From Candidatus Cloacimonadota bacterium (lineage in GTDB: Bacteria; Cloacimonadota; Cloacimonadia; Cloacimonadales; Cloacimonadaceae), in the NCBI GenBank assembly GCA_028681035.1, contig JAQUJJ010000064.1:1-19433 (forward strand): a stretch of 19,433 bases of DNA, given 5' to 3'. A program made the translations under genes and the position numbers. Positions 3,463 to 19,433 of the stretch are shown here, piece after piece. Positions within the stretch are counted from its first letter, which is position 1; each line of letters begins with the position of its first letter. The notes under the pieces are model-generated. The model had not been told where the DNA came from. It ran no database searches and saw nothing but the letters and a program-made list of their open reading frames with translations.

Positions 3463-6400
3463 TAGTTTTGCTCCCACATCCGTTTCATAAACTCTTCCTC
3501 AATTAGCCGCACCTTCCAGGTATCGCCATCCTTTTGCAGGTTAGGCAGGTTGTTACTGCCATTTACATAGATGGTATCAAATTCCCAGTCCAGGGTACTG
3601 ATGCGGTTCTTCTGGAACCATGCGTCCAAGATTAGGTTATCCTCTTCCAGGTTTCCGGTCAGCTTGCGCCAAACGATAAGCACCTTTTCTTTTAAGCCAT
3701 CGTTGGGGCTATAGGGATTCTTGGGCACCCAGCCTTCCACCTTGCGAATCCACCATTTGCCATCAGGAATCTGTTTGAAATCTCCATTAATAATCAGCTT
3801 GGTATCCTGATCCTCAGGTAAATCCGGGTCTGGCAAGCGAGTGAAGACTGTTGTTAATGATTGTGGAATTCCCATATGCACTAATCTAAGACCAATCAGA
3901 TAATTAAATGTCTCGATCAAATCCACTGACTTCTCTATGTACTCATCACTACCGGGCTTTTTCACTTTTAGCACATAGGAGGTGGGATCAGTGAAAGCAT
4001 CGATATTGAGTAAGCTCTGGCTGCCCTTGCTCTCAACATCCAGCATATAGTGAAGCAGGTAGTCTTCTTGGAGTGATGCATTAGCTGCTATGGTTTTATC
4101 TCTGATGGTCTCGTTTTGTAGAACCAGATTGTTAAGGGTATCTTCATAGCCTTCCAATCTAAGATACTTAAAACAATGGGTGATACCTGTATCTCTGTTC
4201 TTGGGTTTACCATCTTTCCAGTCATTACAATAAACTACCTTACTGATACGGGGCTTTAGGACGGTATTAAAATAGTCACCCATTTCGGCCAGTATGTACT
4301 TGCGATGACCCTTATCCTCTCGATTTAGGTTTATAACCGCATGACCCGAAGTGCCAGAGCCAGCAAAGTAATCTAAAACGATCGGATTTTTCACTAGATT
4401 TGTCCCAGCCTGAATACAATCAACATTCGTAAATATTGATTTGGGGTATGTAAATGGATTTCCTGGTAAAATCTGATTTAGTATTTGTGTGCCATGATTA
4501 TTGGCAGAATACTTCGAGTCAGTCCAGCATGATTTATAATTAAACGTCTTCTTTTTTCGTTTAATGTCGTAGGTGTCTCTTTGCTTCAAATAATGTACAA
4601 TGAGTTCGTCTTTGATAGATTCGATAGTATGTCTGGCAAATCTCCATTTTCTTTCAATACCTTGTGGATCAATTGGATATACTTCAATTGTGCCATCAGG
4701 AAGGATTTCATTTACTTTGGGGTGATGGTCATTGGGGCATACATCTCCAAACCCAACTATCTTATCTCCCTCAATTTTGATTGCATAGAAACAACTAGCT
4801 CCAGATGTTCTAAGAGATTCATCACCAGTTACATCCCGCAAATTACGGATATCCCAATCTCTTTCATCTTCCCTTAATTGCTCAGATATATATCTGCCTG
4901 GTTTCGGATATAGAAAATATGCAAATTCGTGTGTATATGTGAAATTATCTCCTTGTTGGCCAGATGGATTATGAACCACAGATATGCAACTTTTTTCATG
5001 TTCAGGATAGTGTTCAGATAATAAACAACCAAGAACCTCTTGCTCAACTTCATCTATAGCCACGATTTGAACTCCTGTACTACCCAACAAACCCTTGGCT
5101 GCATCTATGCGATTATCAATAAGGCAAAGCCATGAGGAGTCTTTGTATGTATTTTTATACAGTATTTCTGAGGATTTGGCATTGTATGGGGGATCAATGT
5201 AAATGCATTTTACTTGTTCTCTATATCTCTCAATTAATAGATTGATCATCTGGAAGTTCTCACTATGAATAAGTAAGCCATCACACTGTTCATCAAAACC
5301 TTGTATTGAGCTCAGCAACTTGGCTTTAAATACTTCGTCAAAGAAGCGAGTATCCAGCATCAGTTTGTCGTTAACCTTGAGAAAGTTTATGGTGAGAGGA
5401 TTGGTAAATGCCGGACAGGTAGTATCACCTTCGATCTCATCAATTGCATAAAGCTTTATCCATTCATCTATCTGCTCTTTGTTGGCTATTATCTGCTGAT
5501 ATAGCTCTTCCGGTATCCGGTCGAGGGTAATGCAGTAGTTTGTCTCAACCACGAATTTCTTTTTGAGCCAGAGCTTCTTTTGGAAGTCCTCAAGCTGAGC
5601 CATAAACTCTATTAGCTTAATAGCTATTTTACGCAGGACTTTGATCTTGGCAAGATAGTCTTCCACTTTGGGAGCTTCAGCGTTTTCGATGTCATCCAGG
5701 CGCATAATTTCGTTTTTGATATAGAAATCCAGCTCACGTTTGAGGAAGGCACCCAGGTTTTTATGAATGAAGTAGTCCATCGTATTGCGTGCTGTATACT
5801 GGTTTATGTACTTAGTCAGTAGGATTCTATCTTTCTCTTTCTCTGTGGGAATAATGGTCGATAGCTGCTGATAGTATGTAGCCATTGATGGCTCTATCTT
5901 TAGGGCATTCATGATGCATGATAAGGCATCTTTATTTAGGGCATCCTGCTTGGCTCCTGCTTGGTCAGGTCGGTATTCAAAGTTAATGATCTGTTCATTC
6001 TTTTCATTTAGCTCCACCGGGTTGTCTTTATGGATGAGGAAGTAGCGTTTGGTGGCATCACTGGCTTTCACATTGGCATGATCGCCTTCGGTGGCATCTA
6101 TAATGCGGAAGTGGAGTTTAAGTCCTTCGGGGACACTGCTGTCATCGAGATCAATCTCTTCATCACTCTTCTTCTTGGTTTCCTTCAATGCTTTAATAGC
6201 TTCGGTGAGATTGACGGTATAATTGGCAAAATACTCAGTGGTTTTGATGTAGTATTGGTCGGCATTTGCCCAATGCAGCTTTACTTCTTCTCCGTTATAG
6301 GGGATGGAGAAAGGGGCTGCCTTTCCCGGTGTTTCTCTGGTATAGTATCGTCTGGAGATAAAGTCGCCATCATCGTAATAGCGTTCAAAGAACCGATAGA

Positions 6401-6749
6401 GATGGTCATATATCTCTGCTTCAGAACTGGCACTATCTTTGATGGCATCATATTTCGCACGAGCTTCCATAACTTTGGGAGTAACTTCTGGGTCTGGTGC
6501 CCCGAAATCTATGGCAGTTTGGATGGCATTGTCCAGTTCTTGTTTTAGCTTGTCTTTCTTGGTTTCATCCACTTGTCCAAAGGTATCTTGGATTACCTGT
6601 AACAGATCATTTTCTATGAAACTACTGACCTGCTCAGATTTAGCATGCATAATCCTGTAAAAACCAAAATCCAGATCAGGTTGATTGAGTTGGAACAGCT
6701 CTTTGAGTTTATTTATCAGCTTAGACCGTAATTGGTCGGTAGTAGGCAT
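3462..6749 (-). CDS. mod: Large beta-class DNA methyltransferase (type III Mod-like)
   Basis: Predicted site-specific DNA amino-methyltransferase of 1095 residues, probably modifying adenine with S-adenosylmethionine. The catalytic motif IV is DPPY (Asp519-Tyr522) and the cofactor motif I is FAGSGT (from Phe795). Motif IV before motif I is the beta-class order found in type III Mod proteins, so target recognition should lie between them. Typical Mod proteins are about 600-700 residues; this one carries roughly 500 extra N-terminal residues with no motif I recognise, perhaps for docking with the two helicases. The ATG at 6749, six bases after AAGGAG, is better placed than the in-frame TTG at 6752. 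It follows the SNF2 stop by 10 bases and overlaps the next start by one base. The segment encoding the probable recognition domain is AT-rich compared with its flanks. A BREX- or DISARM-type methylase is an alternative, but the partner genes of those systems are absent. Confidence 0.88.
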   Translation of the reverse strand: MPTTDQLRSKLINKLKELFQLNQPDLDFGFYRIMHAKSEQVSSFIENDLLQVIQDTFGQVDETKKDKLKQELDNAIQTAIDFGAPDPEVTPKVMEARAKYDAIKDSASSEAEIYDHLYRFFERYYDDGDFISRRYYTRETPGKAAPFSIPYNGEEVKLHWANADQYYIKTTEYFANYTVNLTEAIKALKETKKKSDEEIDLDDSSVPEGLKLHFRIIDATEGDHANVKASDATKRYFLIHKDNPVELNEKNEQIINFEYRPDQAGAKQDALNKDALSCIMNALKIEPSMATYYQQLSTIIPTEKEKDRILLTKYINQYTARNTMDYFIHKNLGAFLKRELDFYIKNEIMRLDDIENAEAPKVEDYLAKIKVLRKIAIKLIEFMAQLEDFQKKLWLKKKFVVETNYCITLDRIPEELYQQIIANKEQIDEWIKLYAIDEIEGDTTCPAFTNPLTINFLKVNDKLMLDTRFFDEVFKAKLLSSIQGFDEQCDGLLIHSENFQMINLLIERYREQVKCIYIDPPYNAKSSEILYKNTYKDSSWLCLIDNRIDAAKGLLGSTGVQIVAIDEVEQEVLGCLLSEHYPEHEKSCISVVHNPSGQQGDNFTYTHEFAYFLYPKPGRYISEQLREDERDWDIRNLRDVTGDESLRTSGASCFYAIKIEGDKIVGFGDVCPNDHHPKVNEILPDGTIEVYPIDPQGIERKWRFARHTIESIKDELIVHYLKQRDTYDIKRKKKTFNYKSCWTDSKYSANNHGTQILNQILPGNPFTYPKSIFTNVDCIQAGTNLVKNPIVLDYFAGSGTSGHAVINLNREDKGHRKYILAEMGDYFNTVLKPRISKVVYCNDWKDGKPKNRDTGITHCFKYLRLEGYEDTLNNLVLQNETIRDKTIAANASLQEDYLLHYMLDVESKGSQSLLNIDAFTDPTSYVLKVKKPGSDEYIEKSVDLIETFNYLIGLRLVHMGIPQSLTTVFTRLPDPDLPEDQDTKLIINGDFKQIPDGKWWIRKVEGWVPKNPYSPNDGLKEKVLIVWRKLTGNLEEDNLILDAWFQKNRISTLDWEFDTIYVNGSNNLPNLQKDGDTWKVRLIEEEFMKRMWEQN

Positions 6750-6759
6750 CAATATCTCC

Positions 6760-9648
6760 TTATACTACTTTCCACCGGATGGTGAAGAGGGTTGTAGTTT
6801 TTGTCTTTTGTTTCAGTCTATGAGACAGTGCATCAATCAGCTTATCTCTTTTTTCGGCAATCTGGTCTTCTGTGTCAAATATCTTCTCACGCAATTTGCG
6901 TTTCTTCTTTTCCAGTTTGGCGATGTCTTCCTGTAAATCGTGCTGTTCTTTCAAAGTGGGGCTTTGACGGCAAAGACGCTGCTTTTCACGAATCTGCCTT
7001 TTGATATCATCCAATTCCCGCTCGACAGATTTTACCATGTCATCTGCCCATTTCTCCAGTTGTTCACGGGCTTCGGTAAAGTGCTTGTTATTCTCTTCCA
7101 GATTCTTTGCCAAAGTAGCTTCTACGTGTCTTTCAGCATTATCTTTCAGGTTTACATCCGCAGGTATTACATCGAGATTCTGGTCTGAGACAGAGCCATT
7201 GCATAGGAACAGCTTTTCGCAGGTCTCCTGGTCGAGGCTATTGCCTGCATCATCCAAGGCAGTGAAGAGCAGATACTCTTCTGTATCCAGAGAGTTTACG
7301 GCAAGCAGGTCGAGCCTTAAGTATCCGCTCTTGCCTATCAGTTGTTCAATAAGAGTGATTCTTGTGGAGTGTTTAGTAATGTCAAATACTACTTCCACGG
7401 GAGGGCATGCTTTCTTTTTACCTTGCTCCAGCACGTATTCACCCAAGGGATGGCTCATGCGATAGAGAAACTCATTTCCGAAGTTTTCGCTATCTTTGGA
7501 GATCAGGCGATATGTCCCGGTACGGCTGTTTTTACATGGAGCTTTCTTCAATTTGAAAGTATGGTGTTGGTCGTTAAAGGCTGCTTCAGTGGTCAGGATG
7601 TGTTTGGTGAGTTGCCAGAAGAGTTTACCTATCTTGTCCAAAGCCTCTACGGCATCAGTATGGTTTGCTTTGAGGCGTTCATGAACATCCTCATCAAAGT
7701 GTTCCAAGAGCTTACGGCGAGTATCTTTCATCCGGGTTTGGATTGTATCTTCCAGATCTTTCTGAAGTTTGTTAAAAGCTGTTGCAATCTCCTCCGCAGT
7801 ACGGCATTGCTGATAAATCTCCAGCACTTTACGTTCGAAATCAACTCCCGATTCCAATGAGCCGAGGACATCATCAGAAGCACCAAAGACACCGGAAAAC
7901 AAGTGAAACTTCTCCGAGAGGATTACAAACACTCTTTGGTCTGCTTCATTACGTTCATTCAAGAAATTGATCACTACCACATCGTGCTTCTGTCCATAAC
8001 GATGGCAGCGACCAATCCTCTGCTCAATGCGCTGGGGATTCCAAGGCAGGTCGTAATTGATCACCATGGAGCAGAATTGCAGGTTCAAGCCTTCAGCACC
8101 CGCTTCAGTGGCAATCAGGATGCTGGAATGATCTCTAAAGCGTTCTATGATTGCAGTGCGCAGATCAACCTGTTTGGAACCTGAAGATCTGCCATTGGTT
8201 TGATTTGCAGCCAACCATTCAGTGTAGATTTGACCCGTAGCATCGTCTTTATTGGAACCATTGAAGGTGAGTACTTCTCCGGCATAGCCGTTGGCTTCCA
8301 GATAATCCTTGAGCCAGGCTTGGGTGCGTCTGGATTCTGTGAAAACCACTGCTTTGCGAGCTGCTCCCATGTTTTGCATTTGGGAAAAGCCGATATCTAA
8401 GGCTGTTAGTAATGCCTTGGACTTAGAATCCACCCCGAAGCTTCTGGCAGTATCTATATAGCCATTCAGGGCTTTTATTTCAGCATCTAATTTGGCTATG
8501 TCAATTTGGAGAGGACGATCTGCTTCAGGAGGAGTGACAGGTTCAGTCTCAGTTTCCAGGTCTTCCTGATCCTCTAAAAGCTCATCCAGTAAGTCATCAT
8601 CTATATAATCGTCTATAATTAGTTGTTGTAAGGCACTTTGCTCTTTAAGAAAATCCTGCCTCAGTTTAACTAAGCGGTCTCTGATAATCTCCAGTGTACC
8701 TGCTACCGCATGGGGTGAGGAAGCCAGTACTTTGCGTACCAGAAGGATGAGCAGATGTTTCTGCCCTTGAGGGAGAGCATAGTTGTCCTCTGTTTTTAGA
8801 AATTCAGAAACGCCCATATACAAATCGTGTTCTCGTTCGGTGGGGGTGAAAGGGCGGGTAATGGGTCTGCGTTCTGTGAATTTCACATATTCCAGTACCT
8901 GGCTGCGGAGGGTCCTCCAGCAAAAGGTCTGTAAGCGTTCTTTCAAATCGCTGAGGCTACCACCGGAATTCATATATTGGGAACGGAATGAAGGCAGATC
9001 ACCAAACAGGTTTTCATCAATCAGAGTTGATAATCCGTATAGTTCAGTAAGAGAGTTTTGCAAAGGAGTGGCTGTAAGAAGTATCTTTTTGATACCTTCG
9101 GTTGCTCTGCGAATCTCTTGTCCCAGTTTATTGCTCTGCCTGTAAGCATTGCGCAGCTTATGGGCTTCATCAATAACCACTAAATCCCATGGGAGCAATT
9201 TGATAGAACTGGCATTCTGCCCAGCATAATGCATGGAGACAATTACTATTTGCTTAGTATCGAAGGGGTTGTCGTGACCTTTCTTTTTCAGGTCTTTGGC
9301 TGTTTTCGCATCCAGTACATGCACAGGGAGATTGAACTTCTCTTGCATCTCCAAAGCCCATTGCTTTCTCAGTGAAGCAGGGCTGATTATCAGGATTCTG
9401 CGTTTTCTTTCTGCCCAATACTGACAGATAGTCAAGCCGGCTTCAATAGTCTTACCCAGTCCAACTTCATCTGCCAATAAAACACCCTTAGATATCGGGG
9501 AGCGTAAACTGAACAGGGAAGCTTCAATCTGATGGGGATTGAGATCAACGCAGGCATCGAATAGAGCTCTACCTACTCTATCTACGCCTGCCCCACCAAT
9601 ACGGCTGAGCTCGTACGCATAGTACTTTGCATGGAAGTCCGTAATCAT
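6760..9648 (-). CDS. SNF2-family helicase of restriction-modification operon
   Basis: SNF2/Swi2-type ATPase of 962 residues, first gene of the operon. It has GLGKT (Lys66), DEAH (160-163), an LTATP motif, and in the second lobe GAEGLNL followed by NPQRIEQRIGRCHRYGQ (about residues 535-552), the classic SNF2 motifs V and VI. An acidic, low-complexity stretch at about 355-390 and a long charged coiled-coil-like region near the C-terminus suggest partner binding. The ORF opens upstream at 9726, but I chose ATG 9648 because the text after it (MITDFHAKYYAYEL, then DLNPHQIEA) resembles the usual start of this family, whereas the upstream residues look like untranslated DNA; the ribosome site (AGGCAGG) is only modest. 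A SNF2 helicase upstream of a Mod-Res pair presumably makes this a three-component system. DISARM class 1 also has a SNF2 helicase next to a methylase, but drmA, drmB and drmC are not seen here. Confidence 0.86.
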   Translation of the reverse strand: MITDFHAKYYAYELSRIGGAGVDRVGRALFDACVDLNPHQIEASLFSLRSPISKGVLLADEVGLGKTIEAGLTICQYWAERKRRILIISPASLRKQWALEMQEKFNLPVHVLDAKTAKDLKKKGHDNPFDTKQIVIVSMHYAGQNASSIKLLPWDLVVIDEAHKLRNAYRQSNKLGQEIRRATEGIKKILLTATPLQNSLTELYGLSTLIDENLFGDLPSFRSQYMNSGGSLSDLKERLQTFCWRTLRSQVLEYVKFTERRPITRPFTPTEREHDLYMGVSEFLKTEDNYALPQGQKHLLILLVRKVLASSPHAVAGTLEIIRDRLVKLRQDFLKEQSALQQLIIDDYIDDDLLDELLEDQEDLETETEPVTPPEADRPLQIDIAKLDAEIKALNGYIDTARSFGVDSKSKALLTALDIGFSQMQNMGAARKAVVFTESRRTQAWLKDYLEANGYAGEVLTFNGSNKDDATGQIYTEWLAANQTNGRSSGSKQVDLRTAIIERFRDHSSILIATEAGAEGLNLQFCSMVINYDLPWNPQRIEQRIGRCHRYGQKHDVVVINFLNERNEADQRVFVILSEKFHLFSGVFGASDDVLGSLESGVDFERKVLEIYQQCRTAEEIATAFNKLQKDLEDTIQTRMKDTRRKLLEHFDEDVHERLKANHTDAVEALDKIGKLFWQLTKHILTTEAAFNDQHHTFKLKKAPCKNSRTGTYRLISKDSENFGNEFLYRMSHPLGEYVLEQGKKKACPPVEVVFDITKHSTRITLIEQLIGKSGYLRLDLLAVNSLDTEEYLLFTALDDAGNSLDQETCEKLFLCNGSVSDQNLDVIPADVNLKDNAERHVEATLAKNLEENNKHFTEAREQLEKWADDMVKSVERELDDIKRQIREKQRLCRQSPTLKEQHDLQEDIAKLEKKKRKLREKIFDTEDQIAEKRDKLIDALSHRLKQKTKTTTLFTIRWKVV

Positions 9649-9872
9649 TCGCCTGCCTATAATAACTATATTTTTATGAGATATCCTATAAATCTTCGAT
9701 GCTACAAGATGAAGTATTGAGAACAATACTACTTCTGGATTAGTCTCATTCTGTCAATCACAAATTCCTTTGCATCTGTTAACATCTTTTGCGTTTATCG
9801 AGCAGCAGAGTGTTAGAATTGTTTCACAGGATAAGAAGGACATCAAACAGTTCCTGTCCAAACTGAAGTCAT

Positions 9873-9886
9873 CAACCTCGAGGTTG
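9873..9886. repeat. 14-bp perfect palindrome
   Basis: CAACCTCGAGGTTG is a perfect two-fold symmetric sequence, much more GC-rich than its surroundings. It lies between the two divergent operons, about 225 bases upstream of SNF2 and 240 bases upstream of the rightward promoter. Its size and symmetry suit a dimeric repressor's operator, but no regulator gene is present in the window and a chance palindrome is possible. Confidence 0.4.
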
Positions 9887-10022
9887 TATAGATCGTCTGC
9901 AATAAATCAATTTTAATGCCCTTAGGATGCGTTTTGATTAAGATTGCAGTGATTGGTCTATTCTGCTGTAACTATGCCCACAGAGGCTGTTATTGGCGCA
10001 GATGCCAGCTTAGTAGCTTTAA

Positions 10023-10045
10023 CAATATCATCAAAAATGATATTG
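10023..10045. repeat. Inverted repeat with 9-bp stem and 5-base loop
   Basis: CAATATCAT and ATGATATTG are exact complements separated by CAAAA. No T-run follows on either side, so it does not look like an intrinsic terminator. It ends about 80 bases before the predicted -35 box of the RiPP operon, which would fit an upstream operator or a DNA cruciform; function is unproven. Confidence 0.4.
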
Positions 10046-10126
10046 GTGGAACTCCATTACGAGTTTGGACTCATATGATTGTCTACACAATACATGAGAG
10101 GTAATATGAAGAACAGCATTTAGGGC

Positions 10127-10154
10127 TTGACAAGATGGCTGTGTGTAGTAAATT
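10127..10154 (+). promoter_or_regulatory. Predicted sigma-70-type promoter of the RiPP operon
   Basis: A perfect TTGACA (10127-10132) and TAAATT (10149-10154, four of six consensus positions) are separated by 16 bases. Transcription would begin near 10162, leaving about 70 bases of leader before the precursor start at 10233. No other promoter of this quality is seen before the downstream genes, which are packed as one operon. The call rests only on consensus matching. Confidence 0.45.
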
Positions 10155-10232
10155 GTTATCATAGGTGGATTGGGTTGCTCAAGTAATGGATCAACTCATT
10201 TCACGGTCATTAAAAAAGCGAGGTTAACTACG

Positions 10233-10439
10233 TTGAAGAACCAAGATAAAAAAGAAGAAAAGCCTGATGTAAAGATTGAAGACACTAAGTTAAGCTTTAA
10301 ATTCAGCTTTTCCAAGCCTAATGACATGGATAGGGAACTTAATGAAGCGATTATTGCTTTTGCAAAAGAGCATCACTTAAGCGCTTCTCAATCCACATGC
10401 TGCGGAGCATCCAAAGGCAAGAATAGAAACGGTAACTGA
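10233..10439 (+). CDS. TOMM/LAP RiPP precursor peptide
   Basis: Predicted 68-residue ribosomal precursor, substrate of the three azole-forming enzymes encoded directly downstream. I chose the TTG at 10233 because GCGAGG lies about nine bases upstream; an earlier in-frame TTG at 10170 has its purine run too close, and the later ATG at 10326 has no ribosome site. The N-terminal part is highly charged (KNQDKKEEK), followed by a strand-like FKFSFSKP (22-29) that could be the part gripped by the leader-binding domain, then a helix-like stretch (33-48). The tail, from about residue 50, holds nearly all the modifiable residues: Ser50, Ser52, Ser54, Thr55, Cys56, Cys57 and Ser60, ending KGKNRNGN. The contiguous S-T-C-C is the best candidate for linked oxazole/thiazole rings. 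No Gly-Gly cleavage site is evident. Assignment rests on size, composition and position rather than on a family match. Confidence 0.72.
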   Translation: MKNQDKKEEKPDVKIEDTKLSFKFSFSKPNDMDRELNEAIIAFAKEHHLSASQSTCCGASKGKNRNGN

Positions 10440-10461
10440 TGAAAGGTTATCTGGATTCTCT

Positions 10462-11520
10462 ATGTTTCGAGATAGTAGCATTCTTGTTTTTCGGTCAGAT
10501 GTATTCCTAAGAGAGAGTAAATCAGGTAACTGGGAAGTTTTTTCTGATCATTTAGGATTGATCAAACAGGCTGATTTTGACGGTAAAGGATTGACCGTTA
10601 GTAGCATAATGAGGGATGCTCTTGATGGGGTTAATACTGTTGGAAACATAAAAAGTATTATGTCTGAGAAAGGTTTCGCTAAAGATGAAACTGATTTAGT
10701 GATAAAATCTCTTTTTCAAGCGGGCTTAATTGCCGTATTGGACGAGTCTAATAATGACGACTTGCACTATGAAGATATTGCTCAAAGAAACTCACTTTCT
10801 TTTTTAACTGCTCACCCAAACAAAGTGATTGAATCACTATCAAAGTACTCTTGTTATATACACGATAAACTCGGATTTGGCCTTTATCTCGGTTATTATC
10901 TCAAATTAACTGGCTTCACAGATATCAACTGGGGTGCTAGTAATACCACTAATCAGCTTGGATCTTCTGAATACATTGATTTATATAGCAAGCTAGTATC
11001 CGCCAAAGCTCAATCTTTCAACGATTTTGTTCAGTATTCAGAGGGGAAAAAAGTAATTGTTTTCGGGTTTGATACCCAATTAGATAACTTGATCAAGCTA
11101 AACGAAGAATCCTATTCAGATGGAAGTTATTATCTACCAGTTTTGAGTATAGGGCAAATCCTTTATTGTGGCCCTTTTGTTAAACCCGGGATTTCTCCTT
11201 GCATGAAGTGTATAAGTAGAAAGTATGAAGACATTCAGGGTGCCAACATGACTACGTTACGTTTTTCTAACGTCTTGCAAGGGTCGATTCCAGCTTGGCA
11301 CTCGGTTATTGCAAACATCGCGGGTCAGGTTTTTAACACATTAACAAGACCTTGGGGCTCACTGCTTTCTAATAATGTTCTTGCATATGATAACCGAGAT
11401 ATTTCGTCAAAGCATTTCAGAGTATTAAAAGATCCAAGATGCCCTATATGCGGAGCATTAAGTATTCATCCAGAAACGACATCAATAACTTCTGCTAACA
11501 AACATCATCGACATGAATAG
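10462..11520 (+). CDS. TOMM cyclodehydratase E1-like partner with leader-binding domain (C protein)
   Basis: 352-residue protein of the SagC/BalhC type, also named TOMM precursor leader peptide-binding protein. The N-terminal ~95 residues look like the small winged-helix RRE (PqqD-like) domain that holds the precursor leader. The rest is a degenerate E1/ThiF-like fold with two CxxC pairs, Cys247/Cys250 and Cys327/Cys330, expected to bind one structural zinc as in fused cyclodehydratases such as TruD. No intact GxGxxG is seen, as expected for a protein that presents substrate and activates its YcaO partner rather than using ATP itself. It starts 22 bases after the precursor stop, with only a weak GGA ribosome site. 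Its last eight bases overlap the YcaO start, implying coupled synthesis of the two subunits. The sequence gives no sign that it is fused to, or truncated from, a larger enzyme. Confidence 0.85.
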   Translation: MFRDSSILVFRSDVFLRESKSGNWEVFSDHLGLIKQADFDGKGLTVSSIMRDALDGVNTVGNIKSIMSEKGFAKDETDLVIKSLFQAGLIAVLDESNNDDLHYEDIAQRNSLSFLTAHPNKVIESLSKYSCYIHDKLGFGLYLGYYLKLTGFTDINWGASNTTNQLGSSEYIDLYSKLVSAKAQSFNDFVQYSEGKKVIVFGFDTQLDNLIKLNEESYSDGSYYLPVLSIGQILYCGPFVKPGISPCMKCISRKYEDIQGANMTTLRFSNVLQGSIPAWHSVIANIAGQVFNTLTRPWGSLLSNNVLAYDNRDISSKHFRVLKDPRCPICGALSIHPETTSITSANKHHRHE

Positions 11521-12793
11521 ATCTGTTACATGGATGGACTTTCAAGATGAAATTATAGGGCCATTTGGTATCTTAGAGGACGTGTTCAAGATACTTCTTG
11601 AACCAGATAAGTTTCCTCTTCATATGTACGGTGCACAACTGAGTAAAAATCATGGAGACTTGTTAGATGAAAGTGAGGATAGGCTTCCAGCATGTGGCGT
11701 TGGGTTTAACCCATCACATGCCAAGGCATCTGCAATTGCTGAAGCTCTTGAGAGATACTCGTTGATAACCTGGTATCCCAGTATCGAATCAGTATATGAT
11801 TATAGAAACGTTCGAAGTGATTTAGCTGGCTATGAATTTCCAATTTCGTTTCCCCCATCATTCAAAGTCAGTAATATCTCAACACAAACCATTTTCAGGG
11901 AATCAAGATTCTGTTATCCACAAGTATATTCAAAAAGGATACCGGTACCAGTGGGCTTGCTAACTTTAACTGATGGCTTCATTGGGCTTCAAAGTTCGAA
12001 TGGTATGGCTACAGGAAACAGTTTGACTGAGGCTGCTATATACGCTCTGTACGAAGTAATTGAAAGAGATACACTCATGTTGGCGTGGTACCGTGAAATA
12101 AGAGGCATCAGGCTAAATCCATTCCAGTACATCAATGAGAACTTGGCTCATGTTTTAAGTACCAACAATATGCGAACCATACACTTAAGATGTTGTTATT
12201 ATATATCAGATTTCAACGTCCCGGTATTTCTATCAGCTTTTATAGAAGGCTCATTAGAAAGCCCATTATCAGTTTCTCTTGGATCAGCTTGCTCTTTAAA
12301 CATCAGAAGTGGGATAGAGCGTTCGATAAAAGAAGCTATTCTGTCCTGGCATGGGTCTCGCGATCTTATCTCTCAGAAAGGACGAATTGGTGATAAACAG
12401 ATAGAGATTAAGAACTTCAGCGACCACTTGCTTTATTGCCATAATTCTAAACAAGCCAAGTCAGTAGCTCAATGGATTTGTCAATCTACTGATATGCAAC
12501 TTGACCATTTAAGAGAGTATTCTGATGAGGAGGATGATTTCGAGTGTTTAACAAAAAGAATTACAATAAATGGCTTCGAATATTTGATATTCGATATGAC
12601 TCCAGAGGAGATTTTGCAAACTAAGCTTGGATTAAAGGTCGCAAGAGCTATTGTCCCCGGAACCATACCATTGTCAGTCGGAAACTGGAATGTTAAGTGG
12701 ATTAAGAGGATGAAAACACCCCCTGATTTTGTTGTTGGGGAATATGCAAAAGGCAAGAAACACTGGGTCACTCAGCCTCACCCATTTCCATGA
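11513..12793 (+). CDS. YcaO-type azoline cyclodehydratase (TOMM D protein)
   Basis: 426-residue YcaO ATPase that uses ATP to phosphorylate backbone amides so that Cys, Ser or Thr side chains close into thiazoline or oxazoline rings. ATP/Mg-binding residues typical of the family are visible: E77-A-L-E80-R81, N163-G-M-A-T-G168 and E181-V-I-E184-R185. The protein ends exactly in P422-H-P-F-P426, the PxPxP tail that in azole-forming YcaO enzymes reaches into the active site and is needed for activity. That tail separates it from YcaO proteins for thioamides or ribosomal protein modification. The ATG at 11513 overlaps the preceding gene by eight bases and lacks its own ribosome site, consistent with translational coupling. 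It should act in the cytoplasm as a complex with the E1-like partner on the precursor encoded at 10233. Confidence 0.93.
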   Translation: MNRSVTWMDFQDEIIGPFGILEDVFKILLEPDKFPLHMYGAQLSKNHGDLLDESEDRLPACGVGFNPSHAKASAIAEALERYSLITWYPSIESVYDYRNVRSDLAGYEFPISFPPSFKVSNISTQTIFRESRFCYPQVYSKRIPVPVGLLTLTDGFIGLQSSNGMATGNSLTEAAIYALYEVIERDTLMLAWYREIRGIRLNPFQYINENLAHVLSTNNMRTIHLRCCYYISDFNVPVFLSAFIEGSLESPLSVSLGSACSLNIRSGIERSIKEAILSWHGSRDLISQKGRIGDKQIEIKNFSDHLLYCHNSKQAKSVAQWICQSTDMQLDHLREYSDEEDDFECLTKRITINGFEYLIFDMTPEEILQTKLGLKVARAIVPGTIPLSVGNWNVKWIKRMKTPPDFVVGEYAKGKKHWVTQPHPFP

Positions 12794-12799
12794 GAATCA

Positions 12800-13663
12800 A
12801 TGAACGAGTTTCTTAAAAACATCAAATCTGCAGTTTACAAACATGATGATTCTGCCCAAGAATCAGTCGGTGAGTTGTTTTGGGTTAACACTAAGATGTT
12901 TGATCTAAAACATACTCTCATAGCAGAGGACCCAATATTTGAAACAAATCTGGACATTGAATTAGATCAAAAGAGGTTTTTATCTGATTTGATCATTGAG
13001 AGCGGGAAGAGATACAATTGCTTTCCTAGACAAAAGCTTAATCTGCCAAGACCTATTAAAAAACACTTCAGCAATCTGATTAAGTCTCGATCAAGTACAA
13101 GAGAATTCAATCCTTATGGTATGCTCTCGATGAATGATCTATCAGATATTTTCTTCTACACATATGGCTTTACAGTTTATGACTCCAAGAGCAAAGCCTT
13201 TAAAAGATCTATACCTTCTGCTGGCGGCTTGTATTCACTTGCGTTGTATGCTATATGTAACAATGTTGAGGGTTTTAAAAGAAATAGTATTATCCATTAT
13301 GCAGCCCATGATCATAGCGTAGATCTGTTATCTGAGTATCCCGATCTTCAGATGTCTTCATATTTTGAGGATTCGAACTGGATCAATGATGCTGCAATGG
13401 TGATGTTAATATCCGGTATACCTGCCCGTATGGAATGGAAATATGGGGAACGTGCCTGGCGATTCATCCAACTGGAAGCTGGACACGCTGCTCAAAATAC
13501 TCAGTTAACATCAACTGCCTTAGATATACAGTCTTGTCCAGTGGTTGCCTTTTATGATGATAAAATTGGTCACCTAATTGGTGTTGATTGCCTCACAGAG
13601 GTAGTCCTATATGCGATTGTTTTAGGAATAATTGACAACGGAGCAAGCCATGAAACACAATAA
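12800..13663 (+). CDS. SagB-type FMN-dependent azoline dehydrogenase
   Basis: 287-residue nitroreductase-fold enzyme of the SagB/McbC type, which uses FMN to oxidise azolines to aromatic azoles. Diagnostic elements are R97-S-S-T-R-E-F103 (flavin phosphate contact in this fold), P139-S-A-G-G-L-Y145, and the helix E217-R-A-W-R-F-I-Q-L-E-A-G-H229, which is strongly conserved in SagB-type proteins. The first ~90 residues form a poorly conserved extension common in the group. It starts six bases after the YcaO stop, with GAG as a weak ribosome site, and its end overlaps the next gene by 14 bases. With this gene the operon has a complete ring-forming and oxidising set, so the product should carry oxidised thiazoles/oxazoles. 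No second dehydrogenase is present in the window. Confidence 0.9.
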   Translation: MNEFLKNIKSAVYKHDDSAQESVGELFWVNTKMFDLKHTLIAEDPIFETNLDIELDQKRFLSDLIIESGKRYNCFPRQKLNLPRPIKKHFSNLIKSRSSTREFNPYGMLSMNDLSDIFFYTYGFTVYDSKSKAFKRSIPSAGGLYSLALYAICNNVEGFKRNSIIHYAAHDHSVDLLSEYPDLQMSSYFEDSNWINDAAMVMLISGIPARMEWKYGERAWRFIQLEAGHAAQNTQLTSTALDIQSCPVVAFYDDKIGHLIGVDCLTEVVLYAIVLGIIDNGASHETQ

Positions 13664-14783
13664 TCTGCTTATTATTGTGGCCGTAATTGTTTTGATTACT
13701 GCCACCATATTGTTTGGATGCAAGCAAAAGCCGGTTGATAACACTATCAGAGTGGGAGTTATTCTCCCCCTAACTGGTGATTCTGCTTATATGGGAGTGG
13801 CGTTTAAGAGCGGAATGGATTTAGCTCTTGAACAGTATGAGCAAAAACGTGCCGCAGAGAAACTTCCTGAAGTTAAAATATTCTATGAAGACAGCATGGA
13901 TTTGAGCAAGAATGCGGTTTCAGCTTATCAAAAACTAAAAAGCATAGATAAAGTTGATATGTATATCTGTGTTTCGGGAGGGTGGAAAGCTTTAATACCC
14001 TTGGCGAATGCTGATAAAAAAGTTCTGTTCTGCTCAGCTGTGTCACCCTCGAAAGTAACTGAGGGAAGTGACTGGACATTTAGGTTCTACACGAGCGCAG
14101 ATGCAGATGCAGCATTGATGGCAAAATATGCGATAGAGAAATTAGCTTTGCAAAAAATTGGTATTCTATATGTGAATGACGATTTTGGTTCTAGCTACAA
14201 GGATGTTTTTTCATCAGTATTTACGGAAGGTACCAACAATGCGGTAATTACAGAGGGCTTCAATCCCAGTGACAGCGATTTTCGCACAGTCTTGGCAAAA
14301 TTTAAAACTCAGAAGATTGATGGTTTATACCTCCTTGGTTATGGGACAAACATGGGCTTAGTCCCAAAGCAAATGAAAGAAATCGGACTAAATGCTACAT
14401 TCCTAAGCATTGGAACGATCAGTTTACCTGATGTGATGCAACTTGCAGGGAACAGCATAAATGGCACATTTTATACAACTACAAAATTCAATGCATTTAT
14501 GCCTGAGACTAAGGAATTGATTGACTTTGTAGGCGATTACAAAACGAAGTATAATCAACAACCCATGTTCTTTGAGGTTTTTGGCTTTGATTCCTTCAAT
14601 ATCCTTGCGTCTGTTTTCAAGAATAGCGGGAAAGACAGTGACAAGATCAGACAAGGATTATTGGCTGTTAAGAACTACAAAGCAGCAGTGGGAGAAGTAA
14701 GCTTTGACGATAACCGCGAAGCAAGCTTCCCGTTGATAGTCCGACAAATCCGCAATGGCGAACTAGTAGATGCAGAGTGGTAA
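13650..14783 (+). CDS. Lipoprotein substrate-binding protein of a Liv-type ABC importer
   Basis: 377-residue periplasmic-type binding protein of the Leu/Ile/Val-binding (Peripla_BP_6, receptor-like) family. The ATG at 13650 has CGGAG six bases upstream and gives a clean lipoprotein signal: K2, a hydrophobic core, then L21-F-G-C24, with Cys24 the expected lipidated residue. The mature part begins with the family's typical IRVGVILPLTGD. Members bind branched-chain amino acids, other amino acids, urea or amides, and some aromatic compounds; the ligand cannot be told from this sequence. It overlaps the SagB-type gene by 14 bases, so it is part of the RiPP operon, and its permeases lie about 3.5 kb downstream after two intervening genes. 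That linkage makes an azole peptide, a fragment of it, or a related metabolite a possible ligand; this is inference. Confidence 0.88.
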   Translation: MKHNNLLIIVAVIVLITATILFGCKQKPVDNTIRVGVILPLTGDSAYMGVAFKSGMDLALEQYEQKRAAEKLPEVKIFYEDSMDLSKNAVSAYQKLKSIDKVDMYICVSGGWKALIPLANADKKVLFCSAVSPSKVTEGSDWTFRFYTSADADAALMAKYAIEKLALQKIGILYVNDDFGSSYKDVFSSVFTEGTNNAVITEGFNPSDSDFRTVLAKFKTQKIDGLYLLGYGTNMGLVPKQMKEIGLNATFLSIGTISLPDVMQLAGNSINGTFYTTTKFNAFMPETKELIDFVGDYKTKYNQQPMFFEVFGFDSFNILASVFKNSGKDSDKIRQGLLAVKNYKAAVGEVSFDDNREASFPLIVRQIRNGELVDAEW

Positions 14784-14786
14784 GAT

Positions 14787-17447
14787 ATGACTAAAGCTGA
14801 TTCACGTAGTTCGAAGGGAGGAAAACTCCTCCCTCCTGCGATTACTGATCCTAAAAATGTTGAAATGCTCAGAGATTTGACTACAGAGCTTGAAATGAAA
14901 ATAGAGCGTGCCTTGCGCTCTCTATTCACCAGTAGCGTGATGCCTTGGGAGCAATGGTTTATCAATGCTATTTCCAACCCTGATAATAGAGCCTCCCTTG
15001 GTATTCCCAACAATTTGGAAAAGATTGATATTAGCCATCTTATGGGTGGCAGGGAAGGCTTTCATGAGACTTTCCGGCGTACGAATCTCGAACGGCTTGG
15101 AATAATCATATCAGAATCTCTTAGAACCATTGTCTGCCATCCCCTAGCAGGCTCTGGGTTAAATCATTATGCCAAGACCGTAGAGACACTTTCTGCAGAA
15201 TTACTGAGAGAGCTTCGCTGGAACGAGTTTGACGGTTCTCTTAAGCATATGATTAGTAATAAATTAGAAATCCTTGTAAAAGATAAACTGCATACATTGT
15301 TTGACGCAATCAATAATATAGTCGAAAGGTACAATGACAACCAGGATGGAGAATTCAAAGTAAAGACTAACATTGATGAAGATGAATGCAAGGAAAGAGT
15401 AACTGAATGTATTTTGAAACTAATGGAAGTTATTGATGATCAGACGGATGCTGCTGATGCTTGTTTTTCTCCTTTCTTATCAGAAATTAATGTTGATTTG
15501 AGCAAGGAAAACCAGTCCGGAGTCGCTTATCCAAAAGCCAAAGATGAAGAACAATCCCAAATCCAAACAGAAATTGTTAATGTGCTAATAGATATACTTA
15601 ACGAATCGTCTGAATCAATTGAAAAAATTGACTGGAAAGATATCGAAGAGCTTACCTATGGGTATTGGCATAGTTATAAAGACCCGGCTATGAATGTAGT
15701 TCTCGATACACTTACAAGAGCCCGATATGATAAAACTATATTATCCAATAGATATGCGTGCAAAGTAATCGACTCGCTTGTTGACGGATATGTAGCATCC
15801 GTCGGCGTAAACAGTTGTTTGACCCTACTGTGGCTGTGCTCTGTAGTTACTTATTCAAGTCATGGTGCAGAAAAACAGTTGGATTTAATACTCAAAAACC
15901 ACTATTCAGAGCCAGTGGAGGATAGTAAAAACGCGTGTTTATCGCATACTGAGCCATTTCTTCACAATAAAAAGAGAGTTTTAGAGTCCTTGGGCGTTCT
16001 TCAAGAATTCAAGGATAAGCAGTATATCAAACGCGTGATTGCTGTCCCAGGTGCAATTGAGGTATGCGCATTTATAAATGCTAAATCTGATGACGAGCAT
16101 ATCAAGATATTGCCTTCTGAGTTTAAGCAGGGACTTGACGCATTATTGGAAAATGTTTTGTGTATTAATAACCGTACTCATGATGGGCAGAAACCACTAA
16201 AAGAATCTGACTGGGGGCACTTGTATTTCATGTGCAACAAGCTTGATGCCCTGTATTCATTTTGGATATGGTATCATGCAGACTTGCTGACACATCAGAG
16301 GCATACACTGCATAAAATTGGTAAATACTGGTATTCAGATATAGTGTACAATAAAGTAGAAAAAATTATCAAAGAAAAGGAGTTTTTTGCTGACAAATGC
16401 GATCTTGAAGAAACTCTTTTTGAGAAATTGTTCGAAGAGATAGGTAATGGGTATCAATTAACACCTCAAGTTGTTGATGCTCAGCGAACGGCCCTAATTG
16501 AAGATCAAAGAAATACTGATCATTGTATTTGTAAAAAAGTATGGAAAGGGAAAAGAAGGATAAAGGGAACTGAACAATCTGTTTTTTTGTTGGGAGGAGC
16601 TGGCTTTGGCAAGACGGAACTACTCAAGCAAATATATACACATAAAGATGATGCTCCCGTTACTGAAGAAAGAACTAGTTCTGAAGCAAACCAAGACGTA
16701 AACACATCTAGCCAGTCAATTCCAGCAAAGATGATTCAGCTAACCCCCCTATCTTTTGTAAAAACTTGCGACTTCTCTAATACTCTTAAGGAATATACAT
16801 CAGATCTAGTGTATCACCATAAGTGTGTTATTTTTATTGATGAATTGCACATAGAAACTCAACCTAGCATTTATGCGCTGTTACTTGTCCCATTGGGAGA
16901 AGGAGTTAAAAACTCAAGAAGCGATGCAAAACCGATTATCCCTATTTGTGGACTTGATGAGCCGTATGATAAATGCGAGTGGATAGATAACAACGAGTTA
17001 AACATCCATTTTGTATTTGCCAGTAGTAGATATCAGACTAAAAGGGTGTTTCTTGAAGAGGCATTCATAACCAAAAACACAGCGATGCGGGATTTTTCAA
17101 CAAGAGTACAACACTGGATTGAATTACCTGGGTTTCATTTAGTACCCGAGCAGAAACTAGCACTCGATGGTTTGGTTTTTCGTAAGACAGGTATATGTGA
17201 GGAAATGATAGGTAACAAAAAAAACGAGCCTACAGACATTACTTTGACAGTGCCTATGAATGCTATATCAGTCGACATAATGAAGAAGTTTCTCGATTTA
17301 AGCATTTCTTCTACAAGGGAATTCATGGCAAATAAAGATCCTCATGTCATACGTGACCGACTTAATGGTGCAAATGGTGTTGAGCGTCAAAACTCATACC
17401 CAGGATGGCTGTGGTCACATATGGAGGAACAATTCAATGGTAAGTAA
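14787..17447 (+). CDS. Large P-loop (AAA-like) ATPase, unrecognised family
   Basis: 886-residue protein with a clear nucleotide-binding core in its C-terminal third: Walker A G603-G-A-G-F-G-K-T610 and Walker B IFID685-E686, followed by a likely sensor strand (HFVFASSR). The first ~550 residues appear largely helical, charged and without recognisable motifs; the last ~150 contain no zinc-binding, protease (no HExxH) or nuclease pattern that I can see. No signal peptide or convincing membrane helix is present, so it is probably cytoplasmic. It starts three bases after the binding-protein stop and overlaps the next gene by 11 bases, so it belongs to the operon. Roles compatible with the context include remodelling a modification complex, driving precursor processing or delivery, or immunity, but none is shown by the sequence. 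STAND/NACHT- or AAA-type classifications are open; length and layout do not match ABC transporter ATPases (no LSGGQ). Confidence 0.82.
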   Translation: MTKADSRSSKGGKLLPPAITDPKNVEMLRDLTTELEMKIERALRSLFTSSVMPWEQWFINAISNPDNRASLGIPNNLEKIDISHLMGGREGFHETFRRTNLERLGIIISESLRTIVCHPLAGSGLNHYAKTVETLSAELLRELRWNEFDGSLKHMISNKLEILVKDKLHTLFDAINNIVERYNDNQDGEFKVKTNIDEDECKERVTECILKLMEVIDDQTDAADACFSPFLSEINVDLSKENQSGVAYPKAKDEEQSQIQTEIVNVLIDILNESSESIEKIDWKDIEELTYGYWHSYKDPAMNVVLDTLTRARYDKTILSNRYACKVIDSLVDGYVASVGVNSCLTLLWLCSVVTYSSHGAEKQLDLILKNHYSEPVEDSKNACLSHTEPFLHNKKRVLESLGVLQEFKDKQYIKRVIAVPGAIEVCAFINAKSDDEHIKILPSEFKQGLDALLENVLCINNRTHDGQKPLKESDWGHLYFMCNKLDALYSFWIWYHADLLTHQRHTLHKIGKYWYSDIVYNKVEKIIKEKEFFADKCDLEETLFEKLFEEIGNGYQLTPQVVDAQRTALIEDQRNTDHCICKKVWKGKRRIKGTEQSVFLLGGAGFGKTELLKQIYTHKDDAPVTEERTSSEANQDVNTSSQSIPAKMIQLTPLSFVKTCDFSNTLKEYTSDLVYHHKCVIFIDELHIETQPSIYALLLVPLGEGVKNSRSDAKPIIPICGLDEPYDKCEWIDNNELNIHFVFASSRYQTKRVFLEEAFITKNTAMRDFSTRVQHWIELPGFHLVPEQKLALDGLVFRKTGICEEMIGNKKNEPTDITLTVPMNAISVDIMKKFLDLSISSTREFMANKDPHVIRDRLNGANGVERQNSYPGWLWSHMEEQFNGK

Positions 17448-18312
17448 CATATATGATCGTCACCTTGACATGATATCTATGAAAGATCAGGAGCAGATTA
17501 ACCAAACTTCAGTAGCAATCATTGGTCTGGGAGGTGTGGGCGGTTCTGCCGCAATGCTATGTGCTAAGGCAGGATACGGAAAGCTGCGTCTCTGCGATTT
17601 TGATAGCTATGAAGAGAGTAACATAGTAGAGCAAGAGTTTGCCCACTTAGGGAATTTGAGCACTCCCAAAAATGAAGTGGTTAGTCAGCAGTTGATAAAC
17701 CATAGCAGGCATTGCCAGATAGAATCTATAAATCTCGAGATTAAGACCGTCGATGAGGCAAAAGAGTTTATTGGCGATGCTGATGTTGTAATCTCTGCTG
17801 TAGATAACGCAAAAGCAAAGATACTGATTGATATTGCTTCACAAGACCTTGGCAAGCCACTTTTTACAGCGTCTAACATCGGTTGGACTGTTCTATATAC
17901 AAGCTTCATGCCGGATGGATGGCGTTTTACTGATATTTACAAAGATTTACCGGGACTTGAACAACTGCAACCTCTGGCTCTGAAATTTGTGGAACTCCAT
18001 CATACAGTATATTTTGCTGTTGTTGGAAGTTTCAAGGTTGACTATTTCCGGAGGTTGATTACTGGGCAGGATGACCATCTCCGCTATATGGCAACACATG
18101 CTTATATTGCAGCGGGTTTTGTAGTAAATGAGGTGAACAAGTATGTTACAGGTAGAGCACCATTTGTAAAAGCACCAGATTCTGTTGCATTGGACATGTT
18201 ACACAATCAGCAGATTAATCTCAATGACTATGTTTCCAAGATTATGGAAATTACCTTGCTGGTAATGCAAGACTCTATTGATGAAGCCTGTGAACGTTTC
18301 CAACGCGATTAA
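17437..18312 (+). CDS. ThiF/HesA/MoeB-like E1 enzyme (stand-alone)
   Basis: 291-residue E1-superfamily protein, distinct from the cyclodehydratase partner because its nucleotide site is largely intact: G30-L-G-G-V-G35-G, the acidic D54-F-D56 at the end of strand 2, S61-N62, Lys78 and Asp123. These enzymes adenylate a C-terminal carboxylate. The usual Arg of the SNxxRQ motif is Glu65 here, no CxxC zinc motif is present, and no leader-binding domain precedes the Rossmann fold. The ATG at 17437 was chosen over the earlier ATG at 17344 because GGAGG lies nine bases upstream and the upstream residues are out-of-frame text of the ATPase gene. It overlaps that gene by 11 bases. Possible roles are activating the precursor's C-terminus (as MccB does for microcin C), or supplying a sulfur- or adenylate-carrying partner not seen here. 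Confidence in the fold is high, in the role low. Confidence 0.85.
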   Translation: MVSNIYDRHLDMISMKDQEQINQTSVAIIGLGGVGGSAAMLCAKAGYGKLRLCDFDSYEESNIVEQEFAHLGNLSTPKNEVVSQQLINHSRHCQIESINLEIKTVDEAKEFIGDADVVISAVDNAKAKILIDIASQDLGKPLFTASNIGWTVLYTSFMPDGWRFTDIYKDLPGLEQLQPLALKFVELHHTVYFAVVGSFKVDYFRRLITGQDDHLRYMATHAYIAAGFVVNEVNKYVTGRAPFVKAPDSVALDMLHNQQINLNDYVSKIMEITLLVMQDSIDEACERFQRD

Positions 18313-18326
18313 TCCAGTGTCAGACA

Positions 18327-19175
18327 ATGGCTTTGCAATTACTTTTTAACTGTATTGACAATGCACTAATCTATGTATTAGTCGGATTAGGGTTATCACT
18401 AATCGTTCGAATTTCCCATACCATGCACTTTTCCTATGCTGCCATTTCAACCTTGGGTTCTGTAATCGCTCTGCAATACTATTATAAATTTGGCTTAGTA
18501 GCTATCTTGATGGGACTTCTATTCGGATCGATACTGGCTATAGGCATGGAATGGTTGATATTCTCCCCTGTGCGAAAACGCGGAGATCCAATGGCAGAAT
18601 TGCTTGCTTCATTGGGCGGTTTCATCGTTATAAGTAATTCAATGGCTTTTATATGGGGTAATTCAATAATCTCATTTCACGGTTATTATTCCAGAATTTA
18701 CTCAATCGGACAGATATACATAACATCTGGGATGTGCCTGCGTTTCATCATTTCCTCACTGCTGATTTTACTCTTCTCTATAATCCTGAGTAAAACTCAA
18801 ATTGGCATCCGTTTGAAAGCAATTGGTAGCAATAGTGATCTGGCTGTTATTTATGGACTCGATACAAGATTGCTATATGTTCTTGCCACAACAATATGCT
18901 CGTTAATGCTGATCTCGGCATCATTATTAGGAGCATTGGACAAGGGAATACGTACAACAGATGGATTGAGCTTGTTTTTAGCAGGGATAGTGATCGTTTG
19001 GATCGCTGGGACAAAGAGTATCCCAGCTATATTGATGACAGCATTAGGGATTGCTGCACTTCAAAGCCTGGCTGCATGGTATCTTGGGGGAATCTGGGTT
19101 GATATTGCTGTGTACTCAATATTGGTGTTGTTTCTTACCATTTCTGGACGGAAACAGTCCATTCTCATAGGTTGA
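18327..19175 (+). CDS. livH: Liv-type ABC importer permease, LivH-like
   Basis: 282-residue inner-membrane permease of the branched-chain amino acid (BPD_transp_2) family, LivH/UrtB type. About eight hydrophobic segments are visible, at roughly residues 5-27, 33-52, 55-79, 88-110, 135-156, 181-203, 214-234 and 245-275. The cytoplasmic loop GIRLKAIGSNSDLAVIYGLD resembles the family's ATPase-coupling loop. It starts 14 bases after the E1-like gene with no strong ribosome site, and the LivM-like gene follows three bases after its stop. With the lipoprotein at 13650 and presumably LivG/LivF ATPases beyond the right edge it would form an importer. The symbol marks family membership only; substrate may differ from branched-chain amino acids. 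Confidence 0.9.
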   Translation: MALQLLFNCIDNALIYVLVGLGLSLIVRISHTMHFSYAAISTLGSVIALQYYYKFGLVAILMGLLFGSILAIGMEWLIFSPVRKRGDPMAELLASLGGFIVISNSMAFIWGNSIISFHGYYSRIYSIGQIYITSGMCLRFIISSLLILLFSIILSKTQIGIRLKAIGSNSDLAVIYGLDTRLLYVLATTICSLMLISASLLGALDKGIRTTDGLSLFLAGIVIVWIAGTKSIPAILMTALGIAALQSLAAWYLGGIWVDIAVYSILVLFLTISGRKQSILIG

Positions 19176-19178
19176 CTT

Positions 19179-19433
19179 ATGGAATATCTCGCTCATCTAT
19201 TGGTGTTAATTGGTATCTATACAATACTGACGATTTCGGTTAATCTACTAACCGGAATAGCTGGACAGATATCCCTTAGTCAAGGGGCGTTTTTAGGGGT
19301 TGGAGCTTACGTCTATGCAATTCTTTCCACCCAATATAGGTTTTCTTTTGGGGTGTGTTTACTTGCTGTATTTCTTATCTCGGGTGTGCTTGGTCTAGTT
19401 ATTGCATTTTTAGCTATCCGACAAAGCAAAAGT
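19179..19433 (+). CDS. livM: Liv-type ABC importer permease, LivM-like, N-terminal part
   Basis: Open frame from ATG 19179 running off the right edge (85 codons, no stop). The text LLTGIAGQISLSQGAFLGVG is the signature start of LivM/UrtC-type permeases, the usual heterodimer partner of LivH. Three hydrophobic segments can be seen, near residues 5-25, 32-50 and 55-80. It begins three bases after the LivH-like stop, so the pair is almost certainly co-translated. The ATPase subunits normally follow this gene and would be outside the window. Confidence 0.88.
   Translation, partial: MEYLAHLLVLIGIYTILTISVNLLTGIAGQISLSQGAFLGVGAYVYAILSTQYRFSFGVCLLAVFLISGVLGLVIAFLAIRQSKS

Follow-up and report, generated by a model that had tools for sequence, protein, structure and literature searches.

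An azole-forming peptide operon that continues into Liv-type importer genes, a rare P-loop protein and a second E1-like enzyme in Candidatus Cloacimonadota

The window analysed here is the whole of contig JAQUJJ010000064.1 (assembly GCA_028681035.1, 19,433 bp) from a Candidatus Cloacimonadota bacterium, and its + strand carries nine successive genes from position 10,233 onward. In order, they encode a precursor peptide, an E1-like partner, YcaO, SagB, a Liv-type lipoprotein, an 886-aa P-loop protein (hereafter the ATPase), a ThiF enzyme, LivH and LivM. The distances between neighbouring genes are 22, -8, 6, -14, 3, -11, 14 and 3 bp, so that the run contains three overlaps and its spacing stays between -14 and +22 bp. 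A first-pass annotation made from the sequence alone had named the same nine near-contiguous genes, and both the family matches and the spacing bear this out. Judged by gene content, it is close to certain that the run is an operon for an azole-containing ribosomally synthesised and post-translationally modified peptide (RiPP). The combination of genes looks unusual, and its purpose is a guess. LivM is incomplete at the end of the contig, which places any downstream LivG/LivF, exporter and protease genes outside the view. The features of the operon are as follows.

10127..10154, + strand: promoter-like TTGACA-16-TAAATT upstream of the precursor gene; a consensus match only (10/12), such sites being no commoner than in shuffles
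10233..10439, + strand: precursor peptide, 68 aa, TTG start; core region SASQSTCCGASKGKNRNGN, with Asn at the end
10462..11520, + strand: cyclodehydratase E1-like partner (C protein, P0002); TIGR03882, CxxC...CxxC; putative N-terminal RiPP recognition element (RRE)
11513..12793, + strand: YcaO cyclodehydratase; C-terminal PHPFP (PxPxP)
12800..13663, + strand: SagB-type azoline dehydrogenase; TIGR03605
13650..14783, + strand: Liv-type lipoprotein substrate-binding protein; PF13458; GYGTN, against GYxxE in three solved relatives
14787..17447, + strand: 886-aa P-loop protein of a rare family; AAA+-like motifs in the C-terminal part
17437..18312, + strand: ThiF/E1-like enzyme, 291 aa; PF00899; no room for an RRE; Arg of NxxRQ replaced by Glu
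18327..19175, + strand: LivH-type permease; PF02653
19179..19433, + strand: LivM-type permease, cut at the contig end; PF02653

The TTG start of the precursor at 10233 has GAGG upstream, and the likely start of the binding protein at 13650 has GGAG upstream. For ThiF, the start at 17437 is more likely than the longest-ORF start at 17344, because GGAGG precedes 17437 and the database entry for the window's own protein is 291 aa long.

The first four genes are assigned to the standard azole-forming set of linear azol(in)e-containing peptides (LAP), also grouped as thiazole/oxazole-modified microcins (TOMM). The partner matches TIGR03882 with 50.4 bits (cut-off 36.9), has no Pfam match at E<=0.1, and shows weak matches to MusD, TruD and LynD (E 0.0016, 0.03 and 0.073). 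Its AlphaFold2 model is unusable (predicted local distance difference test, pLDDT, 33) and gave no Foldseek match at E<=0.001; the three strands followed by three helices seen in it only suggest an RRE. YcaO matches PF02624 with 133.4 bits (cut-off 25.7) and SagB matches TIGR03605 with 110.3 bits (cut-off 78.4). The earlier description of these genes as a standard set therefore holds for the presence of the genes and for most cut-offs, the exception being the 151.2 bits of YcaO against TIGR03604, which lie under that model's cut-off of 219.25. As in LAP/TOMM clusters, the PxPxP YcaO is accompanied by a separate E1-like partner, by SagB and by an adjacent precursor with a short Ser/Thr/Cys core. 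Unlike in those clusters, Liv genes and the genes of an AAA+-like protein and of a second E1 enzyme come after the azole set here, and no exporter or protease is seen in the contig.

The precursor matches no family in a meaningful way; its gene looks real by comparison with relatives of the partner. Relatives come from searching 5.8 billion proteins in 90% clusters, where each row gives the longest contig and no genomic context, the entries of the window's own proteins showing 19,433 bp. The search listed three relatives of the partner, four of the ATPase besides itself (here scoring was confined to the 7,994 candidates with most words in common) and 10 of ThiF besides the window's own entry, three of them at 85-88% identity. 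In the partner relatives P0018 and P0019, the N-terminal extensions of the database entries overlap the precursor gene in another frame. Back-translation of P0019 leaves a precursor frame that can encode the window's ASQSTCCGASKGKNRNGN-stop at 19/19 positions, and in P0018 the final 12 precursor positions, including the stop, are compatible at 12/12. None of 200,000 random tails was fully compatible with P0019 or P0018, the best reaching 11/18 and 6/11. Compatible does not mean identical, as the final residue can be Asn or Asp in P0018 and also His or Tyr in P0019. The P0018 extension itself matches the window at 9/12 residues before the precursor stop and at 1/7 after it. The P0019 extension matches at 13/13 before and 6/7 after, with no drop because P0019 is very close to the window.

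The search also supports recurrence of a partner-ATPase-ThiF block beyond the window. A longest contig of 13,558 bp is common to partner P0018, ATPase P0013 and ThiF P0022, and one of 21,868 bp is common to partner P0019 and ThiF P0023, with the ATPase not among the entries listed there. Since these values are equal, a single 13,558-bp contig probably carries all three relatives, and a single 21,868-bp contig the pair of partner and ThiF. The frame upstream of P0023 fits the C-terminus of ATPase P0014, WKHFGIEKHC-stop, at 11/11, compared with 4/12, 5/12 and 5/7 for the ATPase tails of P0006, P0015 and P0016, and random 10-mers scored at least 9 in 8/20,000 cases; an ATPase tail thus appears to precede ThiF on the 21,868-bp contig as well. 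The contigs of P0017 (1,793 bp) and P0021 (6,041 bp) are shorter than the 7.9 kb span from partner to ThiF. None of 106 partner and 59 ThiF candidates in viral contigs was confirmed. These recurrences bear on the idea that the contig is an assembly chimera of unrelated pieces, which the window, as a bare contig, leaves room for. Partner, ATPase and ThiF relatives probably stand together on another contig, and reading frames in relatives repeat two of the junctions, precursor to partner and ATPase to ThiF. With the restriction side and the Liv end outside this comparison, a chimera is hardly credible. Of the operon unity proposed in the first-pass annotation, the part from partner through ATPase to ThiF is upheld by the relatives, while for the Liv genes it comes only from spacing in this one contig.

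The ATPase had been called unrecognised, and it stays so: it reaches no Pfam or NCBIfam cut-off (the best Pfam match being AAA_16, E 0.0019), and none of the PADLOC models matches it at E<=0.01. Walker A GGAGFGKT (603), Walker B FIDELH, FASSR, DFSTR and STREF, or near variants, follow in the same order in 5/5 members. They may represent the Walker A, Walker B, sensor 1, arginine finger and sensor 2 motifs of AAA+ proteins, with a STAND-type protein also possible. The AlphaFold2 model (pLDDT 45) is unusable. Across 14787-17447, strongly conserved blocks alternate with long linkers of low complexity, rich in indels, by which the relatives differ. Set against their counterparts in the 13,558-bp relative, the partner is 85% and ThiF 88% identical, and the ATPase (against P0013) 66% at the positions that align, its alignment having 135 gap columns, which makes the ATPase the least conserved of the three comparable proteins. 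Over residues 1-430 its identity is 78% to P0013 against 54-62% to the other three relatives; over residues 466-793 the order turns round, with 55% to P0013 against 63-67%, so that the protein looks like a mosaic. A replaced or fast-changing half in P0013 would explain this pattern as well as an exchange in the window, since P0013 is roughly equidistant (53-56%) from all members over residues 466-793. No relative was confirmed among 40 viral and 258 genome-contig pattern matches, and plasmids and phages gave no match. Only weak, short matches (E 1.5e-4 or worse) were found in 400 genomes from the phylum of the Ca. Chloroheliaceae locus (one match) and in 296 genomes from the phylum of the Flavivirga locus (two matches).

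The ThiF enzyme matches PF00899 with 121.7 bits (cut-off 28.1), and MccB and PaaA are among its matched solved structures. It thereby shares its fold with MccB, PaaA, GrcB, EnfB and IndF, from which it differs in lacking an RRE, in carrying Glu65 at the ATP-binding Arg and in being accompanied by a YcaO set. Its GxGGxG motif starts at residue 30 of 291, and no N-terminal RRE is fused to it. Lys78 and Asp123, the ATP-binding Lys and the Mg-binding Asp, are kept in 11/11 ThiF sequences and stand at the spacing of Lys180 and Asp225 in EnfB. Glu65 occupies the site of the NxxRQ Arg of ThiF/MoeB and is found in 6/6 sequences of the subfamily, two of which are only 44-45% identical, and Arg is found at this site in 5/5 distant relatives (23-28% identity). 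The equivalent residue of EnfB, Arg167, is reported to be essential for ATP binding. The protein therefore has the adenylation fold, the Lys and the Asp of an MccB/EnfB-type enzyme and lacks the ATP-binding Arg and the fused RRE; it resembles RiPP ThiF-like enzymes except in one defining residue, and adenylation is uncertain. Its candidate substrate, the window precursor, ends in Asn as MccA does. A ThiF profile run over 10 sources gave matches at E<=0.001 in six, none above 67 bits. At E<=1e-25, one of 296 genomes from a single phylum matched, and the 3.8-kb locus concerned has no YcaO match at E<=1e-3; the same screen of 297 genomes from another phylum returned none, an empty outcome that is uninformative. 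In the available text of a review on ThiF-like RiPP enzymes (PMC12250964), YcaO and cyclodehydratase are never mentioned. A ThiF mining study is described as having kept only RRE-fused ThiF proteins and dropped clusters with YcaO proteins, on the ground that the ThiF proteins of YcaO clusters serve only as docking domains (PMC12150305).

The three Liv-type proteins are assigned at the Pfam level. The binding protein matches PF13458 with 147.3 bits (cut-off 31.7), and LivH and LivM match PF02653 with 43.6 and 43.5 bits (cut-off 26.8); both permeases fall under every NCBIfam cut-off, the top match of LivH being UrtB. Binding protein, LivH and LivM are thus all present as in Liv importers of the hydrophobic amino acid transporter (HAAT) type, which likewise combine a Peripla_BP_6 lipoprotein with two BPD_transp_2 permeases. 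In contrast to those importers, the genes are separated by the ATPase and ThiF genes, no ATPase subunits are seen before the contig stops inside livM, and the Glu of GYxxE is Asn. This last difference comes from three printed alignments among 27 matched solved sequences, in which GYGTN aligns with GYYPE, GYYNE and GYHAE. This Glu probably holds the amino group of amino-acid ligands. Its replacement hints at a ligand that is not a free amino acid.

The same genes could serve supply, with the importer providing a small amine or amide that ThiF joins to the activated C-terminus of the precursor, feeding biosynthesis. EnfB is reported to be able to amidate an activated C-terminus with available amines (PMC12250964). 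The place of the ThiF gene between the binding protein and the permeases, the altered binding-protein site and the sub-cut-off best NCBIfam match of LivH to the urea permease UrtB would agree with such a role. Yet the ATP-binding Arg is Glu in 6/6 close ThiF relatives and the binding protein has no ligand assignment, and amine supply is rather unlikely.

The nine proteins were compared by tblastn (E<=1e-4) with 85 other YcaO loci, consisting of the best 80 of 421 confirmed GTDB relatives of YcaO, which are 20-29% identical over the best segment, and five plasmid loci. SagB was matched in 20 loci, the partner in four, Liv proteins in one, ThiF in one (about 8 kb away) and the ATPase in none. 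The full gene set occurs in 0/85, a count of limited sensitivity given the few partner matches and the many loci truncated by contig ends. The sole Liv case, absent from the other 84 loci, is in Paenibacillus sp. V4I3 (L023, 1414-10846), where five consecutive genes, the first three matching binding protein, LivH and LivM, stop 0.8 kb upstream of two ORFs, the second with a YcaO match. A Stahlbacteria locus (L006, 37-9949) encodes a radical-SAM-like protein, an E1-like partner, YcaO, SagB, an outer-membrane-receptor-like protein and a second YcaO at the contig end, named by eye except for the first YcaO and SagB. A Rhizobium leguminosarum plasmid (L001, 3333-10584) carries three annotated YcaO-like genes, a TOMM leader-binding protein, a methyltransferase and SagB. 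The first-pass annotation knew of no described RiPP class with this combination, and none turned up in the collections and literature searched. In the available text of that literature, YcaO and LivM appear together in one paper, on E. coli stress networks, none of the 15 papers shown out of 156 from a broader search mentions YcaO, and the words importer, branched-chain and AAA are absent from the accessible portion of a 2015 TOMM survey (PMC4603692).

Promoter-like and terminator-like sites were scanned over 9,600-19,433. On the + strand, promoter-like sites number 11, of which nine fall within the operon and two lie ahead of the precursor gene. The two terminator-like sites of this strand are both intragenic (17871 in ThiF and 19272 in LivM). 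A transcription start and terminator between 13650 and 14787 had been named as what would speak against one operon; no + strand terminator-like site lies there, and a + strand promoter-like site at 13632-13661 sits at the junction of SagB and the binding protein. The totals on both strands, 27 promoter-like and 5 terminator-like sites against 29.9 and 6.2 in shuffles, show no excess, and the scan therefore neither proves nor refutes a single transcript. The window contains no Rfam match and no tRNA.

Upstream of the operon and adjoining it, the - strand encodes consecutively an SNF2/DrmD-like helicase (DrmD model E 1e-211), a Type III methyltransferase and a Type III restriction enzyme (232-9726). 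This cluster looks like a known mobile restriction module, because matches of the helicase and the methyltransferase are adjacent on Aeromonas and Klebsiella plasmids. With such a module next door, and with PADLOC E1-E2 models matching ThiF (best E 8.9e-16), ATPase and ThiF might be an E1-plus-AAA conflict module, for ubiquitin-like conjugation or defence, that entered the operon. The PADLOC match covers the E1 part alone, however, no E2 or ubiquitin-like domain is among the Pfam matches of the window, and the ATPase matches none of the PADLOC models at E<=0.01; such an origin is very unlikely. As a member of the E1-E2 defence modules the pair was rejected, no E2 having been found.

The reading that we prefer, at a rough probability of 0.45, is that the nine genes form a single operon that both makes an azol(in)e-containing RiPP and equips it with an uptake route of its own. 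The partner would bind the precursor leader, YcaO would cyclise Ser, Thr and Cys of the core SASQSTCCGAS and SagB would oxidise some of the azolines, steps that agree with the protein families. ThiF, having no leader-binding domain, might find its substrate through the RRE of the partner and modify the conserved hydrophilic tail KGKNRNGN or the C-terminal Asn. The lipoprotein, LivH, LivM and presumed downstream LivG/LivF would return the finished peptide, or its outside capture, to the cell. The AAA+-like protein may be an accessory remodelling or release factor, possibly one for self-protection, and would be the fast-changing part of the operon.

Dedicated uptake of the product is the preferred role of the Liv genes on the analogy of methanobactin. 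MbnE is reported to bind Cu-methanobactin in the periplasm (PMC7558416), and genes for periplasmic binding proteins are described in two kinds of complete methanobactin operon (PMC3621798). Like those operons, the window combines a RiPP with a Cys-containing core and a periplasmic binding protein. Unlike MbnE, which is described as OppA-related (PMC7558416), the window's binding protein is of another family, and neither MbnB/MbnC nor a TonB receptor was found in the contig. Membership among the methanobactin operons was rejected, since a Pfam scan of 13 ORFs of the window matched neither MbnB nor MbnC.

Several points weigh against an operon with its own uptake route. Liv genes are known beside the block from the window and from no relative, and Liv proteins were matched in only one of the 85 other YcaO loci. 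No exporter, protease or outer-membrane receptor is seen before the contig ends inside LivM, and with neither exporter nor protease in view traffic could run either way. ThiF may not adenylate, given the change of Arg to Glu, and the structure models of ATPase and partner both failed (pLDDT 45 and 33). The longest contigs of ATPases P0014, P0015 and P0016 (26,113, 16,687 and 28,081 bp) have no listed partner or ThiF relative, and those of ThiF proteins P0024 (15,294 bp) and P0025 (9,446 bp), at 44-45% identity, have no listed partner relative. Contig ends, shorter contigs of the same cluster or too-distant partners could account for the missing pairings. ATPases of this family may well also occur away from azole genes.

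Some of these points would also suit a transcript that joins separate functions, with the azole genes, the ATPase/ThiF pair and the Liv genes working independently and the last forming an ordinary nutrient importer. Binding proteins of the Liv type are widespread, with matches in 320 plasmid records, a Liv-type run lies 0.8 kb upstream of the YcaO ORFs in the Paenibacillus locus, and 3/4 ATPase relatives lie on contigs with no listed partner or ThiF. Against this stand the ATPase and ThiF genes between the binding-protein gene and livH, the overlap of the SagB and binding-protein genes and the unusual binding-protein site. Separate functions on one transcript are accordingly somewhat unlikely, without being far-fetched.

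If the operon does make an azole peptide with its own uptake route, a more elaborate scheme, that of a RiPP class of its own, can be drawn, which is doubtful and is put forward as speculation. The peptide would be modified again at its C-terminal Asn by an RRE-less, rewired ThiF that borrows the leader-binding domain of the partner, the product would be recaptured by a Liv importer with a remodelled pocket, and the recombining AAA+-like protein would diversify in step with a partner or a threat. Should the preferred reading hold, the operon would combine the making of an azole RiPP with uptake of the Liv type, and a second E1 enzyme would work next to the YcaO set. An RRE-less ThiF that is separate from its docking partner is the kind of case that ThiF mining of the form described above would miss.

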